From contig JAKATP010000018.1 in NCBI GenBank assembly GCA_021818685.1, forward strand, positions 1-34,603: a stretch of 34,603 nt of DNA, given 5' to 3'. Below the pieces are notes generated by a model. It ran no database searches. It was not told where the DNA came from and saw nothing but the letters and a program-made list of their open reading frames with translations. A program made the translations under genes and the position numbers. Each line of letters starts with the position of its first letter. Within the stretch, counting starts at the first letter, position 1. Source of the DNA: Bacillota bacterium (GTDB lineage: Bacteria; Bacillota; Sulfobacillia; Sulfobacillales; JAIMBI01). Below, piece by piece: positions 7,796 to 34,603 of the stretch.

Positions 7796-8914
7796 ATGAG
7801 CATCGACTTTTCGCTGCTGCCCACGCCGCCTATGGGGTTTAACACCTGGAATCACTTTCATATGGACATCACCGAACGGCTGGTGGAGGACACCATCGAG
7901 GCGTTTATCACCCAGGGGCTTTTCGATGCCGGATATCGGTACGTGAATATTGACGACGGCTGGATGGCTCCCGCCCGCGACCGCCGCGGACGCCTCGTGC
8001 CCGACCCCGTGCGCTTTCCCGGCGGGATCCGCCGTCTTGCCGACCTCGCGCACCGGCACGGTCTGAAGCTCGGTCTCTACACCGATTGCGGCACCCGTAC
8101 CTGCGGCGGCCTGCCTGCCAGCTACGACCATGACCTCGTGGACGCGAACACGTTCGCGGACTTTGGCATCGATTACCTGAAGCACGACTGGTGTCACGTG
8201 CCGTTTGAGGATTTTCCCGGCCTGAGCGAGGCACAGGTGGCCGAAACGCTGTACACCCGCATGTCCGAGGCCATCTTGCAGACAGGCCATCCCATCGTGT
8301 TGTCGATGTGCAACTGGGGCCATGGTCATCCGTGGGAATGGGCCCGGGGAATGGCCCATCTCTGGCGCACTACTCCCGATATTGCCGATACCTTCGCGGG
8401 CCCGACCCCAAGCGGGGTCTTGAGCGTGTGCGAAATCTTTCACCGGAACGTTGTTCTGGCCGACTTCGCCGGACCCGGGGGGTTCAACGACCCCGATATG
8501 CTGGAGGTGGGTAATGGTGGTCTTACTCCGATCGAGGAGGAGACCCATTTCGCCCTTTGGTGTCTCATGGCGGCACCCCTGTTGCTGGGCAACGACCTGC
8601 GGGCCCTTGATGATCACACCCGCCGCCTCGTCACGCACGCCGGCCTCATCGCCATTAATCAAGATCCGCTGTGCCGACCGGCGAGGCTCATGGGCTCAGA
8701 AGGCGGAGTGCATCGACTCCAACGACCCATGGCCGATGGATCGACCGTCTGGGGCCTTTTTAATGAGCGGGCGGACGAGCGGACCGTACCCTTGCCGATG
8801 GCGATGGATGTGGCGGGGCCCGTGCAGGATGTGATGGCGAATCGGACATACGAGCGGACCGATGCCCGCGTGAGCGTGCCCGGCCATGGCATACGTGTCT
8901 TTCGCACGGGGTAG
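7796..8914 (+). CDS. Alpha-galactosidase, GH27 family
   Basis: This retaining glycosidase releases terminal alpha-linked galactose from melibiose- or raffinose-type sugars or galactomannan oligosaccharides. The 372 residues include the hallmark opening TPPMGFNTWNHF, NIDDGWM near residue 55, the nucleophile segment DYLKHDWC (residues 126-133, Asp131), and GGFNDPDMLEVGNGG near 230, which contains the acid/base aspartate. LWCLMAAPLLLGNDLR and NQDPLCRPA complete the barrel, and a short beta domain ends the protein. AAAGGA precedes the ATG. It lacks a signal peptide, like its rhamnosidase neighbour. Released galactose could enter the GalK/GalT enzymes encoded about 11 kb downstream. Related GH27 enzymes act on beta-L-arabinopyranosides or N-acetylgalactosaminides, so the exact substrate is open. 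Confidence 0.93.
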   Translation: MSIDFSLLPTPPMGFNTWNHFHMDITERLVEDTIEAFITQGLFDAGYRYVNIDDGWMAPARDRRGRLVPDPVRFPGGIRRLADLAHRHGLKLGLYTDCGTRTCGGLPASYDHDLVDANTFADFGIDYLKHDWCHVPFEDFPGLSEAQVAETLYTRMSEAILQTGHPIVLSMCNWGHGHPWEWARGMAHLWRTTPDIADTFAGPTPSGVLSVCEIFHRNVVLADFAGPGGFNDPDMLEVGNGGLTPIEEETHFALWCLMAAPLLLGNDLRALDDHTRRLVTHAGLIAINQDPLCRPARLMGSEGGVHRLQRPMADGSTVWGLFNERADERTVPLPMAMDVAGPVQDVMANRTYERTDARVSVPGHGIRVFRTG

Positions 8915-8949
8915 GAGAGGGAGGAGGCGATCGCTTCGCGGGCGAATCA

Positions 8950-8968
8950 CCCCTCGAAGCGTGAGGGG
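8950..8968 (+). other. Inverted repeat between alpha-galactosidase and propeller genes
   Basis: CCCCTC (8950-8955) and GAGGGG (8963-8968) form a 6-base stem with a 7-base loop in the 77-base gap between two same-strand genes. No T-run follows, so it may be a weak attenuator or an mRNA processing hairpin. It ends about 20 bases before the GGGTGAGGTGG ribosome site of the next gene. Confidence 0.3.
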
Positions 8969-8991
8969 ATCGAGAAGGGTGAGGTGGCGAG

Positions 8992-11900
8992 ATGCCGGAC
9001 GGTGGGTGGCGATGGCGGCTCGTGGGACCGCACCGGGGTGGCCGCGTGGCCGCCGTGGCGGGAGACCCCTCCGATCCGCTCGTTTATTATTTTGGTGCGG
9101 CCGCCGGCGGGATCTGGAAGACGGACGACGCCGGTCTTAGCTGGAAGAACGTCTCCGATGGATTCCTGACGACGGCTTCTGTGGGTGCCCTGGCGGTCGC
9201 GGCGGCGGATTCCAACGTGATCTATGCCGGGACGGGTGAGGCATGCATCCGTGGCAACGTGTCGTACGGCGACGGCGTTTACCGGTCCGACGATGCCGGG
9301 ATGAGCTGGCGGAACCTGGGACTCCACGATACGCGCCACATCGCGCGGGTGAGGGTGCACCCGAACGATCCGGATCTGGTCTACGTGGCCGCCCTCGGAC
9401 ACGCATTCGGCCCCAGCGGAGAACGGGGCGTATATCGGAGCACGGACGGCGGACATCGCTTTGAGCGGATCTTATTTCGCGACGAAAATTCGGGGGCCGT
9501 CGATCTGAGCCTCGATCCTCAAAACCCCCGCATCCTGTACGCGGCGTTGTGGGACGCCCGCCGTTATCCCTGGAAGCTTGTGAGCGGAGGTCCTGGAAGT
9601 TCCCTTTACCGCAGTGTCGATGGGGGAGAAAGCTGGGTCGAACTCACCGACCGGCCGGGACTCCCCGACGGCCTGAAAGGGCGGATCGGCGTCGCCTGCT
9701 CGCCCGCACAGGCGGGACGCGTATGGGCGGCGGTGGAGTCGAAAGAGGGTGGTCTGTTCCGGTCCGACGATCGCGGCGAGTCGTGGCGCCGGGTTTCAGA
9801 CCGTCCCGACCTTGTGCAGCGGCCCTGGTACTATATGCACCTGTTTGCCCATCCCACGGACCCCGAGACGGTTTATGTACTGAATCTTGGGGTGTGGCGA
9901 TCGCCCGACGGCGGCGAGCACTTCGAGGAAGTGCCCAACCCTTACGGGGACAACCATGACCTCTGGATCGACCCTCGTTCGCCGGCCCGGATGATCCTGG
10001 GCAACGACGGCGGCGCCTCCGTAACCCAAAACGGCGGCCGGACCTGGTCCTCACTTTACAATCAGCCCACAGGTCAGTTTTACCACGTGGTCACCGACAC
10101 CCAGGAGTGGTACCGGATCTACGGAGCGCAGCAGGACAACACGACGCTCTCGGTGCCGAGTCGCGTCGACGCCGGGACCATCAGCCTGGCTGACTGCTAT
10201 ACGGTGGGAGGCGGGGAGAGCGGGTTCGTAGCGGTACGGGCCGATGACCCGAACATTGTTTATGCCGGAAGCTATGCCTCGCGCATGACCCGGTACGACC
10301 ATCGCACCCGGAGTCAGGTCGACATCACGATCTGGCCGGAGGATCCCATTGGATATGGCGCAGGAGAGCTCCGATACCGATTTCAGTGGACGTTTCCGAT
10401 TGTGGTGTCGCCGCACGATCCGGGCCTTCTCTACGCGGCCGGTAACCAGGTGTTCGTGTCCCGCGACGGGGGGCAGCGATGGACGCCCATCAGCCCCGAT
10501 CTCACCCGGGCGGACCCGTCGACGCTGGGACCATCAGGCGGGCCGATCACCCAGGACAATGTCTCCACCGAGTACTACGCCACCGTGTTTGCTTTCGCCG
10601 AGTCACCGTGCGAGCCCGGTCGGTTGTGGGCTGGGTCCGACGACGGGCGGGTGCACATGTCCCCCGACGGTGGCGCCAGTTGGCAGGATGTCACCCCGCC
10701 CAGCCTGCCCGAATGGGCGCTCGTGAGCATCATCGAACCGTCTCCCCATCAGGCCCGCACGGCATATCTGGCCGCGACGCGCTACAAGCTCGACGATACG
10801 GCCCCCTATCTCTTCCGAACGGATAATGCCGGGGTCAGCTGGACTCTTATCGTGGATGGCATCCCGAGAAGCGACTACACCCGAGTTGTGCGGGAGGATC
10901 CGTCTCGCGAAGGACTCCTCTACTGCGGAACGGAGACGGGGATCTACGTCTCTTACGACCGGGGAGACCACTGGCAGCCGCTGGCAGGTGGGGGGTTTCC
11001 CGTGGTGCCGGTGCACGACCTTGCCATTCATGGAGACGCCCTGGTGGTGGCCACCCACGGCCGTGGCTTCTATGTGCTGGACAATCTGTGGGCCGTGCGG
11101 GCCGCGGATCGGCCTGGCTTCAATGAGGAGTTGCAGCTGGTCCCGCCGCTTCCGGCCTACCGGGGCTCCTCTCCGTACATTCCGTCCGCGCGGCCGGGTG
11201 AGCGGACGTATCTCCACGCCACCCACGGTGACGCCATCGCCGAGGTCGGACAGGATGAAGGCGGTAAGACCGTTCGGCCCCTCACCGCCGGCGAGAATCT
11301 GCCGCCGGGATTGACGATGGACTACTACGTGCCGGACGACGAAGGTCTCTTGCTGGAAATTTTCATCGAGGATGCGACGGGGCACACCCTTCGGCGTTTT
11401 TCCAATGAATCGGGTCCTGAGGGCGAGCGGCGTCCTTCGGCTGCCCGTGGCCACCACCGGTTCCGGTGGGACTTGAAACTTGAAAGCGCCACCGCCCTTT
11501 CGGAGAGCGCGCCGCTGTCACCGTACTGGGGTGGAGGACTGGACGGCCCCGAACTCGTGCCGGGGCGTTATCGGATTCGGCTCGTGCGCGGGAGCTTCGA
11601 GCGAGACGCCTGGTTTGAGGTGCGCCCGCACCCGGGCTCCACCGTGAGGGCCGACGACTACGCGGCGCAGTTTGACCTCCTCCTCGCCATCCGTGACAAG
11701 ATTTCCGCCGTGCATGAGCTGGTTGCGTCCAGTCGGCGTGTTCGCGCCGCTCTCCTGGCCTGGCAGGAACGCTTGTCCCGGCACGGAGCCGGGGCCCGAG
11801 AGGCCGCTCAGGCGGCGGCTCGGATCGCGGACGCTTTGGTGGCGGCGGAGGCTGAGCTGGTCGAGGTACGCGGCCGCAGCCGCGCGGACTCGTTTAATTA

Positions 11901-12108
11901 TCCGCCGAAAGTCAACAGCAAGCTCGCGTCACTGCAATCGACTGTCGCCTACGGGGACGGCCGGCCGCCAGAGCAGTGCGTGGCGGTGTTCGCGTATTTG
12001 GCGGGTGAGGCGGATCGCGGGATGTCGCGGCTGCGGAATCTGCTGGAAGAGGAAGTCCCCCGGGTTTCCCGCCTTATTCGCGAGGCGGGGGTGGATCCCC
12101 TGGCGTGA
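8992..12108 (+). CDS. Large Asp-box (BNR/sortilin-like) beta-propeller protein
   Basis: The 1038 residues belong to the Asp-box propeller proteins often labelled VPS10/BNR or 'glycosyl hydrolase'. At least ten Asp boxes (S/T-x-D-x-G-x-x-W/F) are visible between residues about 43 and 660, for example KTDDAGLSW, RSDDAGMSW, RSVDGGESW, RSDDRGESW, SRDGGQRW, SPDGGASW, RTDNAGVSW and SYDRGDHW. After the propeller come an Ig-like beta domain (about 770-880) and a helical C-terminus rich in Ala, Arg and Glu. Most relatives I know of are exported; this one has no signal peptide. The GGTGAGGTGG ribosome site supports the start, and the opening WRLVGPHRGGRVAAVAG matches the family's first blade. Position beside GH78 and GH27 hints at glycan handling, but no catalytic residues can be named. 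Confidence 0.8.
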   Translation: MPDGGWRWRLVGPHRGGRVAAVAGDPSDPLVYYFGAAAGGIWKTDDAGLSWKNVSDGFLTTASVGALAVAAADSNVIYAGTGEACIRGNVSYGDGVYRSDDAGMSWRNLGLHDTRHIARVRVHPNDPDLVYVAALGHAFGPSGERGVYRSTDGGHRFERILFRDENSGAVDLSLDPQNPRILYAALWDARRYPWKLVSGGPGSSLYRSVDGGESWVELTDRPGLPDGLKGRIGVACSPAQAGRVWAAVESKEGGLFRSDDRGESWRRVSDRPDLVQRPWYYMHLFAHPTDPETVYVLNLGVWRSPDGGEHFEEVPNPYGDNHDLWIDPRSPARMILGNDGGASVTQNGGRTWSSLYNQPTGQFYHVVTDTQEWYRIYGAQQDNTTLSVPSRVDAGTISLADCYTVGGGESGFVAVRADDPNIVYAGSYASRMTRYDHRTRSQVDITIWPEDPIGYGAGELRYRFQWTFPIVVSPHDPGLLYAAGNQVFVSRDGGQRWTPISPDLTRADPSTLGPSGGPITQDNVSTEYYATVFAFAESPCEPGRLWAGSDDGRVHMSPDGGASWQDVTPPSLPEWALVSIIEPSPHQARTAYLAATRYKLDDTAPYLFRTDNAGVSWTLIVDGIPRSDYTRVVREDPSREGLLYCGTETGIYVSYDRGDHWQPLAGGGFPVVPVHDLAIHGDALVVATHGRGFYVLDNLWAVRAADRPGFNEELQLVPPLPAYRGSSPYIPSARPGERTYLHATHGDAIAEVGQDEGGKTVRPLTAGENLPPGLTMDYYVPDDEGLLLEIFIEDATGHTLRRFSNESGPEGERRPSAARGHHRFRWDLKLESATALSESAPLSPYWGGGLDGPELVPGRYRIRLVRGSFERDAWFEVRPHPGSTVRADDYAAQFDLLLAIRDKISAVHELVASSRRVRAALLAWQERLSRHGAGAREAAQAAARIADALVAAEAELVEVRGRSRADSFNYPPKVNSKLASLQSTVAYGDGRPPEQCVAVFAYLAGEADRGMSRLRNLLEEEVPRVSRLIREAGVDPLA

Positions 12109-29842: not shown

Positions 29843-30079
29843 ATGGAGATCGAGGCAGCGGCCGTCGTCGACGCGCGCGGGCTCCAGTGCCCGTTGCCCG
29901 TCATCCGCGCCAAGAAGGGCCTAAACGGTGTGCCGGTAGGAGCCCTCGTGGAGGTGCTAGCCACCGATCCCGGGTCCGTGGCCGACTTTGAGGCCTGGAC
30001 CCGCAGTACGGGCCATGAACTGGTGCGGGCATCACAAGAACAGGATCGCTACACGTTTTTGATCCGTCGGACGCACTAG
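29843..30079 (+). CDS. TusA/SirA-like sulfur carrier protein
   Basis: The 78-residue protein has the fold and signature of TusA: VVDARGLQCPLPVIRAKKGL, with the active Cys16 in CPLP (the C-P-x-P motif), then LVEVLATDPGSVADFEAWTRSTGHELV and a final strand. Such proteins carry persulfide sulfur for tRNA thiolation, molybdenum cofactor or, in sulfur oxidisers, dissimilatory sulfur transfer. There is no dsr, hdr or tusBCDE gene in the window, so the pathway is unknown. GGAGG precedes the ATG by 9 bases. It is followed 34 bases later by a TlpA-like thioredoxin and is divergent from the HxlR gene. Confidence 0.9.
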   Translation: MEIEAAAVVDARGLQCPLPVIRAKKGLNGVPVGALVEVLATDPGSVADFEAWTRSTGHELVRASQEQDRYTFLIRRTH

Positions 30080-30113
30080 CGCCTGACCCTTTGCAAGGTG
30101 GGAGGATGCACTC

Positions 30114-30689
30114 GTGGTGGTGCGTTCGTCTTGGCAGCGCATTCTGACCGTCCTCGTCCTGGTGGCCGCCGCGGGCTATGCCGGGTACATCCTGGCGCCC
30201 GTGGTAGCGCCCCACCGGGCGCCGCCGGCACACGTCTCGGTGGTAGGTCGCAAGGCCCCTGTGGGACTCAAGGTGGGCGACTACCCGCCGAACTTTACCC
30301 TAGAGGACATCCATGGCCGGACGGTGACCCTGTGGAATCTCCGCGGCCACGCGGTATGGCTCAACTTCTGGGCGACGTGGTGTCCATGGTGCCGGACGGA
30401 GATGCCGGACATGGAACGCATTCATGAACTGTATGGCAGCAAGATCGACATCTTCGGCATCGACCTGCAGGAGTCCCAGCCCACCGTGATGCGCTGGCTG
30501 CAGGCGCACCATATCACGTACGACGTGCTGCTGGACAAGACCGGCTCGGTGGCTACGATGTACGACGTGTCGCAGCTTCCCGTATCCATTTTCATCGGTG
30601 CGGACGGACGCATCACCCATGTGCAGCCGGGCGCCCTTCTATCCGTGCACAGCATGGAGCCCTATGTGAACCAGGCCATCGCGCATTAA
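30114..30689 (+). CDS. TlpA/ResA-like membrane-anchored thiol-disulfide oxidoreductase
   Basis: The 191-residue protein has one N-terminal membrane helix (ILTVLVLVAAAGYAGYILAPVV, about 10-31) and an extracytoplasmic thioredoxin domain. FTLEDIHGRTVTLWNLRG leads to WLNFWATWCPWCRTEMPDME, with the active WCPWC, then FGIDLQESQPTVMRWL, the cis-proline segment VSQLPVSIFIGADGRI, and a C-terminal helix. ResA-type proteins reduce apocytochrome c cysteines before haem attachment, which would suit an organism with the cytochrome c encoded at the right end of the window; TlpA relatives have other roles. The GTG at 30114 is 8 bases after GGAGG. It probably shares a transcript with the TusA-like gene. Confidence 0.9.
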   Translation: MVVRSSWQRILTVLVLVAAAGYAGYILAPVVAPHRAPPAHVSVVGRKAPVGLKVGDYPPNFTLEDIHGRTVTLWNLRGHAVWLNFWATWCPWCRTEMPDMERIHELYGSKIDIFGIDLQESQPTVMRWLQAHHITYDVLLDKTGSVATMYDVSQLPVSIFIGADGRITHVQPGALLSVHSMEPYVNQAIAH

Positions 30690-30766: not shown

Positions 30767-31681
30767 ATGCTGGTCGAGTGCGTGCCGAACTTTAGTGAAG
30801 GAAGGCGTCCCGCGGTCCTGCAGGCGCTCTTGGACGCTGCCCGCAAGCCGCGGGTCCAGGTGTTGGGTCTGTCGGCGGACCCTGATCACAATCGTGCTGT
30901 CATGACGCTGGCGGGAGAGGGTCCGGACCTGGTCGAGGCCTTGTTGGATGCCGCCCGCACGGCTCTTCAGCTCATTGATCTACGAGACCACCGGGGAAGC
31001 CACCCCCGTATGGGAGCAGTGGACGTGGTGCCGTTTGTACCCATCGACGAGACGCCCATGGCCTACTGCGTGGAGATGGCTCACCATCTCGGCGAACAGT
31101 TCGGATCGGAACTGGGTCTCCCCGTCTATCTGTACGAGCGGGCAGCGCGGAGCCGCGCCCGGGTAAACCTCGCGCGCGTGCGGCAGGCGGAGTTCGAGGA
31201 GCTGGCGGTCTGGATGGCGGAGCCCACCCACCGGCCAGACTACGGGCCCGCGGTGCCGCACCCGACGGGCGGTGCCGTGGCCGTCGGCGCGAGGCCGCCC
31301 CTTATCGCGTTCAACGCCTGGCTGTCCACCCGAGACCCGCATGTCGCCGAAAGAGTGGCGCGCGCGGTGCGGGGATCCTCTGGGGGTCTTGTGGGCGTGA
31401 AGGCGCTGGCCATGAAGACACCGTCTCGGGAGGAGCATCCGGTCCAGGTGTCGATGAACCTCGTGGAGTACCGACGGACATCAATGCCGATGGCGCTCGA
31501 AATGGTGCGGCGGGAGGCGGCCCGCTACGGCGCCCAGGTCGTGCGGACCGAAGTGGTTGGCTTCCTGCCTTTGGAGGCGGTGTTAGAAAGCGCCCGCTAT
31601 TATCTTCAGCTGACGGACTTCAGCGCCGAACAGGTGCTGGAGCGGAGCTTCTGGGTGCACCGCCTGGGGGAGGAGCCATGA
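30767..31681 (+). CDS. Glutamate formimidoyltransferase (FTCD N-terminal type)
   Basis: This enzyme moves the formimino group of N-formimino-L-glutamate, a histidine breakdown product, to tetrahydrofolate. The 304 residues equal the stand-alone transferase part of human FTCD, without the cyclodeaminase. Conserved blocks are VECVPNFSEGRRP at the start, DPDHNRAVMTL, LRDHRGSHPRMGAVDVVPFVP (with the probable catalytic His), ELGLPVYLYERAA, RPDYGPAVPHPTGGAVAVGARPPLIAFN and QVSMNLVEYRRT. The ATG at 30767 begins right at the family N-terminus. It overlaps hutI by ATGA (31678-31681). A cyclodeaminase (fchA type) is not seen in the window. Confidence 0.92.
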   Translation: MLVECVPNFSEGRRPAVLQALLDAARKPRVQVLGLSADPDHNRAVMTLAGEGPDLVEALLDAARTALQLIDLRDHRGSHPRMGAVDVVPFVPIDETPMAYCVEMAHHLGEQFGSELGLPVYLYERAARSRARVNLARVRQAEFEELAVWMAEPTHRPDYGPAVPHPTGGAVAVGARPPLIAFNAWLSTRDPHVAERVARAVRGSSGGLVGVKALAMKTPSREEHPVQVSMNLVEYRRTSMPMALEMVRREAARYGAQVVRTEVVGFLPLEAVLESARYYLQLTDFSAEQVLERSFWVHRLGEEP

Positions 31682-32931
31682 CGACGCCCGCCGATCTGCT
31701 CATCGTGGATATCGGAACGCTGGTGCGCCCGCGGGAGCCGCAGCGCGGCGTTCGCCAGCGGGACCTTTGCCGGGTGGAGCGGCAGATGGCCCTGTCTATC
31801 AAAGATGGGCGCGTGGTCGCGGCCGGCCCCGAGCCCGAGCTGCGCCGGGCGTCTGTGGGCGCCCGCATTGTGAGCGCCGGCGGGAGGCTGGTCACGCCAG
31901 GCCTGGTTGACGCGCATACGCACTTGCTGTTCGCCGGCCAGCGTGCCCATGAAGTGGCGCTGAAGGCGCGGGGCGCCACCTACCTCGAAATCTTGGCCGC
32001 AGGCGGCGGTATCCTCAGCACCGTGCGCGCGACCCGCGGGGCCAGCGATGGGGAGCTTCTCGCACAGACCCGCGCCCGCCTCGGCGCGGCGGTGGCCCAC
32101 GGCACCACGCATCTGGAAGTGAAAACCGGCTATAATCTCACCCCGGCCGGGGAACTTCACCTGGTTTCGCTCTTGGAGGAGCTCCGGCGCGAGGGGCCAT
32201 GGCGCCTCACGATCACCTTCTTGGGCGCCCATGCCCTGCCCGACGAATACCGCGGACACGCGTCGGAGTTCTTGCAGGAGTTGCAGCGCGTCCATCCCCA
32301 ACTGGTCGGGCACGCAGACTTTGTCGACATCTTTCAGGAGCAAGGGGTGTTCGAGCAGGAGGAGGCGCGGCCGTACCTGGAGGATGCCCGCCGGCACGGC
32401 CTGCCTATTAAGCTGCACGTGGATGAGCTGGCCGACGGCGGCGGGGCCGCACTAGGCGCGGAGTTGGGTGCCACGTCGGTCGATCATCTGGCCCACACCG
32501 GGCCCGCGGGAGTCGACCGGCTGCGAGACAGCCAGACCGTGGCCGTGCTTCTGCCTGGCACGTCTGGCTATTTGAACCAGGGCCCGCACGCCCCGGCACG
32601 TGCGCTTCTCGAAGCGGGAGTGTCCGTCGCCGTCGCCTCAGACGGGAATCCCGGCTCATCGCCCACGGTGGCGCTCGCTCCGCTTCTACCGTGGGCGGCC
32701 TCCTGGCTCCACATGGAGCCGGAGGAACTGTGGCCCGCGGTCACCACGATCGCCGGAGCGGCGCTCAGATGCCCCGAGGCCGGCCGCCTGGAGGCCGGCG
32801 ACCCCGCGGACTTCCTGGTGTGGGAAACGGACGACTACCGGGTGCCGTGCTACCAATATGGGACCTCACTCGTGGACGAGACCTATATCGGCGGACGCCG
32901 GGTGGCGGCCGGAGGACATCCGCTCTTCTAG
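31678..32931 (+). CDS. hutI: Imidazolonepropionase
   Basis: HutI, an amidohydrolase, opens imidazolone-5-propionate to N-formimino-L-glutamate, the substrate of the enzyme encoded just upstream. The 417 residues match the family. Metal ligands are visible: His80 and His82 in DAHTHLLFAG, His247 in IKLHVDE and Asp322 in ASDGNPGSSP. The specific segments GATYLEILAAGGGILSTVRATR, HGTTHLEVKTGYNL and FLGAHALPDEY distinguish it from other amidohydrolases. It is coupled to the formimidoyltransferase through ATGA. The first two histidine-degradation enzymes (HutH, HutU) are not in the window. It converges on a leftward membrane-protein gene. Confidence 0.94.
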   Translation: MTTPADLLIVDIGTLVRPREPQRGVRQRDLCRVERQMALSIKDGRVVAAGPEPELRRASVGARIVSAGGRLVTPGLVDAHTHLLFAGQRAHEVALKARGATYLEILAAGGGILSTVRATRGASDGELLAQTRARLGAAVAHGTTHLEVKTGYNLTPAGELHLVSLLEELRREGPWRLTITFLGAHALPDEYRGHASEFLQELQRVHPQLVGHADFVDIFQEQGVFEQEEARPYLEDARRHGLPIKLHVDELADGGGAALGAELGATSVDHLAHTGPAGVDRLRDSQTVAVLLPGTSGYLNQGPHAPARALLEAGVSVAVASDGNPGSSPTVALAPLLPWAASWLHMEPEELWPAVTTIAGAALRCPEAGRLEAGDPADFLVWETDDYRVPCYQYGTSLVDETYIGGRRVAAGGHPLF

Positions 32932-32971: not shown

Positions 32972-33910
32972 TTACGGGCCAGGGGAAGAGGGAGAGGTGC
33001 CAGGGGAGGGGGAAGCAAGAGGAGCTCCCCCGAGAGGGTCCTCGACAACCCGGGTCGCGAAAGCACCTGCCAGGGCCGCCATCATCCACACGATTCCTGT
33101 GTTGGGATCCGTGCTGAGGCCGCCGAAGACGCCGCCGAAATTCTCCCCCAACCACCAAAGGGCGCAGGCCCAGACGACCAGTGCACCGTAACTCGCTATA
33201 TGCTCGGGCCAATGGAGCAGGAGGAGCCCGACCGCGCCCATGGACAGCAGGGCGGCCAGGTTGACCGCGGCGGGATGGCGGGCCGCGACCACGACGAGGG
33301 CGCTTATGGGCGCAGTCCGGAGAGAGACCGGTGTGAGCACAAGGTTGGCACGTACGGCCTGCATAAGATTCTGGTTCCGCCACCAGATAGGGAAAGCCTG
33401 CAGGGCGGCTCCCCCGATCCAGGCCGCCCCCAGGACGCGACCGTACCGGGGGAGGAATCGGTCGGGTCGGCCGCGGCCCGCGAGCAGCACGAGACTGCCC
33501 GCCGCATACAGGAGCGCCGCTCCCGGGCCGCCCACCAGAAAGCTCATCCCGCCCAGGAGCCCGCCCATCCATTCTGCGAAGAACCACACCATAAGGGCCC
33601 AGGCGAGGGAGGCGTACAGCGCGTATCGTCCAAGCGGCCGGTGACGTCCGAACAAAAAGCACAGGCCAAGTGCGATCTGGATCGTGAACACGGCCAGATC
33701 AAGGGCCGTGGCCAGATGGTGGTGGTACAGATAGGACACGACCGTGTCATTGACGAGGTGGACGTACCAGCCAGGCTCGCCCCATGCCCCCATGGTGACC
33801 ATGTAGAGCTGGCCCAAGGCCATGTCGCGCTGGAGGGATAAGAGGCCGTCCCAGATCCAAAGAGCCCCGAGTCCCCACCAGAGCCAGGTGTGGACCCGGA
33901 GCCGCTTCAT
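32972..33910 (-). CDS. Polytopic membrane protein next to the sulfocyanin gene
   Basis: The 312-residue protein has about eight hydrophobic helices, a histidine-rich outer stretch (LYHHHLATALDL), two Trp-rich loops (FPIWWRNQNLM, CALWWLGENFGGVFGG) and a Ser/Pro-rich C-terminal tail. LWWGLGALWIWDGLLSLQRDM at the start and the general layout recall DoxX-like or respiratory membrane proteins, but I do not recognise a family. It starts 9 bases after the stop of the cytochrome c-sulfocyanin gene, so the two are almost certainly one operon. A role in the same electron-transfer chain, or in assembling it, is the natural guess. The GAAW-GEP and STDPNTG loops may face outward. Confidence 0.7.
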   Translation of the reverse strand: MKRLRVHTWLWWGLGALWIWDGLLSLQRDMALGQLYMVTMGAWGEPGWYVHLVNDTVVSYLYHHHLATALDLAVFTIQIALGLCFLFGRHRPLGRYALYASLAWALMVWFFAEWMGGLLGGMSFLVGGPGAALLYAAGSLVLLAGRGRPDRFLPRYGRVLGAAWIGGAALQAFPIWWRNQNLMQAVRANLVLTPVSLRTAPISALVVVAARHPAAVNLAALLSMGAVGLLLLHWPEHIASYGALVVWACALWWLGENFGGVFGGLSTDPNTGIVWMMAALAGAFATRVVEDPLGGAPLASPSPGTSPSSPGP

Positions 33911-33919
33911 GGGGTATCC

Positions 33920-34603
33920 CTACGCCTTGATGGACGGTGACCCGGAGCTCGAGACGATAAATGTGTCCCACATCCCGAGCGCTTCATGCCCTACCACCAG
34001 ACAGGCGATCCGATACTGGCCGGCACTGCCCGTCTTGAAGGAGAAACTGGCCGACTGCCCGGCCGCAATACCGGAGGTGAGCTCGCTCCCGGGCAAACCA
34101 GCCCCGGGGAAGGCCGGCGAGGTGGCGGTTGAGTTCTTGACGATGGCGGCCGAATGGGGAAGCGGGCCCTTATTGGACAGGTTGACGTCCACCGTCCACC
34201 CGGTCGGCACCGTCACCACCAGCTTGCCGTTGGCATAGCCGTCATAATTGAGCCCCGAGTTGGCACCGGTGGACGACGCCACCAGGGTCAGGGTCACGGT
34301 TTTGGCCGCGGCGTTGACCTTCATAAACTGGCCGACCGCCGTGGATACGGACGGCGCGGCCGACGAGGGCGGGGAGGACGAAGATGGCGAGGACGAGGAT
34401 GTCGACGGCGACGGCGAGGACGACGACGAGGGGGGAATGGCGAGCCCGATAAGCGTGTAAAGCTTGTTGCGGGTGACGACCCCAAGCTTGCCATTGAGTC
34501 CCCACAAAAAGGCACCTAGGTCAGACGCCTGCTGGCGGGTGAGGGAACCCGGACTGGTCTTCGGCATGTACTGGTAGATGAATTCGCTGAGCTCCCACTC
34601 GGC
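33920..34603 (-). CDS. Cytochrome c-sulfocyanin fusion, 5' end outside the window
   Basis: The frame is open to the window edge, so the start is missing. The first visible residues, EWELSEFIYQYMPKTSPGSL, then TRQQASDLGAFLWGLNGKLG, look like the end of a class I cytochrome c, where the Met in YMP would be the sixth haem ligand; the CxxCH site would lie beyond 34603. A Ser/Pro linker of about 28 residues follows, then a blue-copper domain of the sulfocyanin type. It has NYDGYANGKLVVTVPTGWTVDVNLSNKG, His in LPHSAAIV, and the Cys-x(4)-His-x(4)-Met loop ACLVVGHEALGMW. Sulfocyanins carry electrons in acidophile respiratory chains (Sulfolobus SoxE, Ferroplasma). A polytopic protein gene follows immediately. 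The fusion was probably exported and membrane-bound. Confidence 0.85.
   Translation of the reverse strand, partial: AEWELSEFIYQYMPKTSPGSLTRQQASDLGAFLWGLNGKLGVVTRNKLYTLIGLAIPPSSSSSPSPSTSSSSPSSSSPPSSAAPSVSTAVGQFMKVNAAAKTVTLTLVASSTGANSGLNYDGYANGKLVVTVPTGWTVDVNLSNKGPLPHSAAIVKNSTATSPAFPGAGLPGSELTSGIAAGQSASFSFKTGSAGQYRIACLVVGHEALGMWDTFIVSSSGSPSIKA

Follow-up and report, generated by a model that had tools for sequence, protein, structure and literature searches.

The window, meaning the whole 34,603-nucleotide stretch that was analysed, is contig C6 of a 3.09 Mb genome assembled in 246 contigs. At its far end lies a gene that is open at the window edge and joins a cytochrome c to a sulfocyanin-type copper domain. 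A membrane-protein gene follows it on the same strand, and hutI lies beyond on the other. The features of the locus are as follows.

33920..34603, minus strand: cytochrome c-sulfocyanin lipoprotein gene, 3' part, residues 76-302 (ORF reading, Pfam, intact homologue L043:5337-6251)
34477..34603, no strand: 127-bp exact overlap of C6 with contig C190, an assembly break within the gene (unique sequence match)
34565..34567, minus strand: codon of Met88 (YMPK), probable distal haem c ligand and first codon of the truncated ORF in the window; invariant in the alignment
34328..34435, minus strand: Ser/Pro-rich linker, about residues 132-167; long in genus g1 only
33944..34324, minus strand: sulfocyanin (SoxE, PF06525) type-1 copper domain, residues 169-295 (Pfam)
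34154..34156, minus strand: copper ligand His225, invariant in the alignment
34001..34003, minus strand: copper ligand Cys276, invariant in the alignment
33986..33988, minus strand: copper ligand His281, invariant in the alignment
33971..33973, minus strand: copper ligand Met286, invariant in the alignment
33911..33919, minus strand: 9-base spacer from the fusion stop to the membrane-protein start (TAG GGATACCCC ATG), read from the sequence
32972..33910, minus strand: partner gene for a 312-residue membrane protein with about eight predicted spans and an internal duplication (ORF reading, AlphaFold2, hhalign)
31678..32931, plus strand: hutI (imidazolonepropionase-like), flank of the conserved site; also adjoins in L043, L044, L045, L184, L185 and L186

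The window ends inside the fusion gene, and its last 127 bases recur once elsewhere in the whole assembly, at the end of C190, to which C6 was joined through this overlap. The 5' part of the gene (residues 1-117, L005:9720-10070) shares 42 residues with the window part, giving a joined protein of 302 residues; AGGAGG stands shortly 5' of ATG. On C190 a divergent methyltransferase gene adjoins the fusion gene, as it does in an intact relative, which supports the join. The sister MAG G006 carries the whole fusion on a single contig (304 residues, 89% identical to that of the window), making a wrong join unlikely. The gene spans an assembly break and the window holds only part of the cytochrome domain, as might be expected of an artefact arising from a wrong join or from two genes read through, but the overlap is unique, intact single-contig copies exist in six genomes (G006, G002, G003, G510, G511 and G489) and no stop codon separates the two domains; the chance of an artefact is negligible, and a wrong join is ruled out by the unique overlap together with the six intact copies.

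The C190 part supplies a lipobox, LMAGC, and a haem attachment site, CAACH (C47-x-x-C50-H51). Both the site and the lipobox residues Gly18-Cys19 are invariant in an alignment of the six complete homologues; processing as a lipoprotein is predicted. The joined protein matches the Cytochrom_C profile PF00034 (E=1.8e-8, 36 bits against a cut-off of 21.3), as does the C190 piece alone (E=1.3e-9), and the N-terminal domain is assigned to the class-I cytochromes c on this profile, the CxxCH site and Met88, which is probably the distal ligand. The SoxE profile PF06525 matches the joined protein with E=3.2e-24 and 85.6 bits against a cut-off of 21. The four copper ligands and both haem-site features are unchanged in 6/6 complete aligned fusion homologues from two families. 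Chance likeness of the copper domain was considered and is ruled out by the E value of 3e-24 and the invariant ligands. Pfam and the alignment thus bear out the original prediction that one protein carries a cytochrome c, a linker and a sulfocyanin domain with His, Cys, His and Met: extension into C190 yielded the upstream haem site and lipobox, and the Met-Pro segment at Met88 falls within the cytochrome domain.

Sulfocyanins (SoxE, PF06525) of Sulfolobus, Ferroplasma and Sulfobacillus have the same copper ligand set and belong to acidophile respiration. They are single-domain proteins, whereas in the fusion a class-I haem c domain precedes the copper domain and a lipobox provides the anchor. 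The original description of sulfocyanin as best known from acidophilic archaea was too narrow, since it had already been described in Sulfobacillus among the Bacillota (PMC4062416, PMC6803676). The copper domain also departs from known sulfocyanins in sequence. Its score against the equivalog model NCBIfam TIGR03094, 74.1 bits, is far under the cut-off of 168.4, so that its potential and partner may differ from those of sulfocyanin proper. The FNFNGTS sulfocyanin motif (PMC3750248) is absent, being GLNYDGYA in the window fusion, GFN[FY]NGEG in genus g3 and GFNFDGGY in family f2. The rusticyanin profile TIGR03095 was not reached either (15.5 against 146.7 bits), and the fusion differs from a CuA-bearing caa3 subunit II in having a single ligand Cys and no Pfam COX2 match. 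AlphaFold2 gave a weak model of the whole fusion (G006 copy; pLDDT 64.5, pTM 0.49), which was used for matching the cupredoxin fold only, with haem and copper placement not read from it; the best solved Foldseek matches of this weak model were rusticyanins. The three-domain haem-copper nitrite reductase RpNiR (PMC6278305) likewise has a cytochrome c fused to cupredoxin as a built-in electron donor, but RpNiR is an enzyme whose core holds two cupredoxins and which has a type-2 copper, whereas the window fusion is a carrier with one cupredoxin domain and no type-2 copper. A second, stand-alone sulfocyanin lipoprotein, 53% identical across the copper domain, is encoded on contig C122 of the same genome (L006:7978-8634).

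The fusion is present in seven genomes of two families. Three of these, in the sister family f2 (G510, G511 and G489), came from a search with PF06525 across the genomes of the class, followed by reading of the ORFs; a pattern search of the genome collection with the fusion matched close relatives only. Wherever the surroundings were inspected, the fusions share a chromosomal site between the methyltransferase gene and hutI, and both genus g1 and f2 have the order of a leftward methyltransferase gene, the rightward fusion and membrane-protein genes, and a leftward hutI. An exception is G510, where the stretch of contig inspected carries genes other than hutI after the membrane gene. Retention of the joined gene, often with its partner, at one site in two families argues for a real, selected redox relay. 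Comparison of G000 with G006 gave dN/dS values of about 0.085 for the fusion gene (0.056/0.66) and 0.23 for the membrane gene (0.23/1.0), which indicate strong purifying selection. A tree of the copper domains, built on only ∼138 columns, does not decide for or against a single origin of the fused domains (AU p 0.025 when divergent rows were kept, 0.07 after their removal).

The same site also records changes and losses. G001 has there a dihaem cytochrome (L046:6887-7597) with a haem domain where the copper domain otherwise sits. The first domain of this protein shares 50% identity with the cytochrome domain of the window fusion; the second shares 49-51% with a monohaem cytochrome c encoded as a separate gene ahead of the fusion in two f2 genomes. 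The G001 protein suggests that copper and haem domains swap as the next carrier attached to the same cytochrome. In G002 and G003 the linker is shorter and the membrane gene is not adjacent, and in G004 and G005 only remnants of the fusion are left; together with the missing sulfocyanin domain of G001, these genomes indicate that the fusion is dispensable. The remnants contain stops and frame breaks (L055 ∼8200-9000 in G004 and L054 ∼8000-8900 in G005), for which assembly error is a possible source.

The partner membrane protein has no Pfam or NCBIfam family match. Its AlphaFold2 model is confident (pLDDT 88.7, pTM 0.86), with helices that read as ∼8 membrane spans, in agreement with the eight-helix protein originally described nine bases after the fusion, and the copy beside the G006 fusion is about 70% identical to that of the window. 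In hhalign one half matches the other as a homologue (probability 99.1, E 1.5e-18, against 0.4% for a reversed control), and the protein is therefore an internal duplication. Family members were matched in 66/154 genomes of the class, often in several copies per genome. A membrane gene lies directly downstream of the fusion in five of the seven fusion genomes; counted within 1 kb among the matches listed, it accompanies 5/7 cytochrome c fusions and 0/39 stand-alone sulfocyanins (Fisher p 1.5e-5, although the genomes are related and the events not independent). In a 60-row tree the fusion-linked copies from the two families group with g3 and f5 relatives in one clade (support 97/95). The two genes are probably on one transcript, and the association is well supported, pointing to the membrane protein as a dedicated partner of the fusion.

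What the partner does is suggested by its residues and by the neighbors of its relatives. Across 46 family sequences the charged residues D21, R95, E113 and D268 are conserved, as is M30, the one strongly conserved Met; there is no conserved His or Cys. Cytochrome b was considered as an identity and is ruled out, there being no conserved His pairs and no cytochrome b profile match. DoxX/DoxD membership gained no profile support, with no Pfam match and an hhalign probability of ≤1% against ten DoxX relatives. No solved structure matched significantly in Foldseek. The most plausible matches, which bear on whether the protein has the four-helix membrane fold of the DoxX type, were NACHO/TMEM35A (prob 0.97, TM 0.64 by target, E 1.3) and GGCX (prob 0.85, E about 1), both weak, and the viral fold library gave no match. 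The likeness to the DoxX-like/TMEM35 and GGCX folds is thus faint; in addition, DoxX differs in lacking profile-profile support (probability 1%), and the membrane protein has an internal duplication of its own.

We tentatively suggest, at somewhat under even odds, that the membrane protein is a copper or cofactor assembly factor for an exported cupredoxin and not an electron-transfer or docking subunit. Relatives in other genomes adjoin SCO1/SenC (PF02630), CtaG (PF09678) and copper ATPase-like genes, and a paralogue in the window's own genome adjoins a COX2-like cupredoxin; the family's want of conserved His, Cys and cytochrome b signature fits this role, as does the weak fold match to NACHO/TMEM35A, a protein that acts as an assembly factor. 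Against it, M30 stands without an obvious copper-binding motif, several paralogues have no copper neighbors, and the stand-alone sulfocyanins of the same genomes have no adjacent copy among the matches listed. The absence of cofactor-binding residues and the copper-insertion genes beside relatives favor assembly or seating over quinol chemistry, and a part in loading copper or seating the carrier is no less likely than docking on the quinol side. The proposal of a docking or quinol-side partner therefore holds as far as co-occurrence goes, both in the neighborhoods above and in a relative that, in putative Sulfobacillus, is fused to a domain resembling sulfocyanin; docking of the carrier or work on the quinol side is a possible role. 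At L051:8187-9838 and L053:7379-9320 a paralogous membrane protein has a secreted COX2-like cupredoxin (weak PF00116, CxxxC) on one side and a 4Fe-4S ferredoxin on the other.

The copper domain is joined to other proteins elsewhere in the class. In f5 genomes it forms the C-terminus of a cytochrome b encoded downstream of the Rieske gene; such proteins (PF00033, PF13631, PF00032, PF06525) directly follow Rieske at L134:1932-3404 (G454) and L102:460-1932 (G214). From their sequences they would belong to a quinol-oxidising complex in which copper replaces haem c, and the window genome's own b complex bears a c-type haem where f5 has the sulfocyanin domain. Genus g277 (putative Sulfobacillus) has a distant member of the membrane-protein family that ends in a sulfocyanin-like domain (PF06525, E 6e-12) from which the copper-ligand His and Cys have been lost; in the tree this branch lies outside the window's clade. 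These fusions were read at L135:2254-3939, L136:1192-2880, L137, L141 and L150, with a partial copy at L138, and in G499 genes for a phosphoesterase-like protein and a cytochrome c come after the fusion. A SCO1/SenC-type protein in G466 (L140:2536-4140) ends in a degenerate sulfocyanin domain without the Cys. The fusions to cytochrome b, to the membrane protein and to a SCO1-type protein indicate that several proteins of respiration or copper handling have acquired the domain in the class. A broader proposal, which we advance with some reserve and would not yet bet on, is that Sulfobacillus-related bacteria have evolved a modular respiration that uses the sulfocyanin domain as a plug-in substitute for haem c, placed on cytochrome c, on cytochrome b or, with its ligands lost, on a new family of duplicated membrane proteins dedicated to seating or assembling copper carriers that are exported.

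Covalent carrier domains are familiar from one-membrane bacteria, as in the b6c/bc complex and in caa3 oxidase with its fused cytochrome c, and the f5 cytochrome b-sulfocyanin can be regarded as a copper version of the b6c/bc type. Those carriers are fused to an integral complex, whereas in the window a haem c is fused to a second carrier domain and the whole is held by a lipid anchor. An exported polypeptide with a haem c site and a type-1 copper site is an electron carrier at the outer face of the membrane. Taken together, we consider it probable (about 0.66) that the fusion is a tethered haem c/type-1 copper relay feeding a caa3-type oxidase, with the membrane protein as its assembling or seating partner. 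The protein would be exported and held by its lipid on the outside of the cell's one membrane, with two one-electron centers in one chain, the N-terminal class-I haem c and the C-terminal type-1 copper, separated by a flexible linker. One center would accept electrons from a donor, either outside Fe(II) or a quinol-oxidising cytochrome b complex, and pass them to the other within the same molecule, as the architecture suggests; the second would deliver them to a terminal oxidase of the caa3 type bearing haem c and CuA. The membrane protein would load copper into the carrier or dock it at the membrane, carrying no electrons itself. Loading of both centers, and the direction and partners of electron flow, are predictions from sequence. 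The window's own genome encodes a caa3-like oxidase on contig C135 (L207:6047-10206). Subunit II of this oxidase has motifs for CuA and haem c, and a CxxCH is present in subunit IV as well.

The relay could receive its electrons from two sides. A possible reading, to which we give a little over one chance in three, makes the fusion a tethered carrier from a cytochrome b (b6c-type) complex to the terminal oxidase, in place of soluble cytochrome c. It draws on the f5 cytochrome b-sulfocyanin fusions beside Rieske in the same class, on the Sulfolobus SoxM supercomplex, which combines sulfocyanin, cytochrome b and a Rieske protein (PMC3750248), and on the b6/subunit IV-cytochrome c complex that the genome possesses together with its caa3-like oxidase. 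This b complex already has a haem c of its own, however, and in none of the genomes examined does the fusion form an operon with b or oxidase genes.

A slightly more doubtful reading, to which we give about one chance in three, takes the copper domain as the primary acceptor of Fe(II) at low pH, with the tethered haem c passing the electrons on to the oxidase. Its nearest counterpart is Acidithiobacillus ferrooxidans, where rusticyanin, a blue copper protein, and the cytochrome c Cyc1 act in series before an aa3-type oxidase. These are two separate periplasmic proteins of a two-membrane cell, whereas the window holds both centers in one protein, which on the iron reading would be a one-molecule analogue. 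The rusticyanin matches of the weak fusion model point the same way, as do the high sulfocyanin transcript of S. thermosulfidooxidans on Fe(II) (PMC4062416) and the proposal of Ferroplasma sulfocyanin as primary Fe(II) acceptor (PMC10654088). S. thermosulfidooxidans is without rus/petI operons (PMC4062416). On the other hand, spectra of Fe(II)-fed S. thermosulfidooxidans are dominated by a-type cytochromes (PMC5143472), and sulfocyanin also occurs in acidophiles that do not oxidise iron: Picrophilus and Cuniculiplasma have the gene without iron oxidation, so that sulfocyanin genes alone do not predict it (PMC5155288). In G001 haem takes the place of copper, and in f5 the copper domain sits on cytochrome b; both favor a relay of general use in respiration over one that serves iron strictly.

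The cytochrome c-sulfocyanin fusion is a new domain architecture built of known parts; in the open-licence literature searched, no description was found of the fusion, its membrane partner or the swap series. How electrons travel from outside donors to the oxidase in single-membrane acidophiles is unsettled, and a covalent haem-copper carrier bears on this route, making it directly testable in what order the two centers act and whether a copper carrier can stand in for a haem carrier and the reverse. The pairing with the fusion, and the fusion of a relative to the copper domain, provide a functional lead for a large unnamed membrane-protein family. The series of c-copper, c-c, b-copper and membrane protein-copper proteins amounts to a natural experiment in the modular construction of electron carriers.

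Two further observations concern other genes. At 29843-30689 of the window the gene for a small SirA/TusA-like protein comes before that for a TlpA-like thioredoxin (PF00578), and the pair lies near hutI in several family relatives. Two large sortilin/BNR-repeat-like proteins of 1038 and 1053 residues, apparent paralogues by eye, are encoded at 8992-12108 of the window and at L239:4627-7788.
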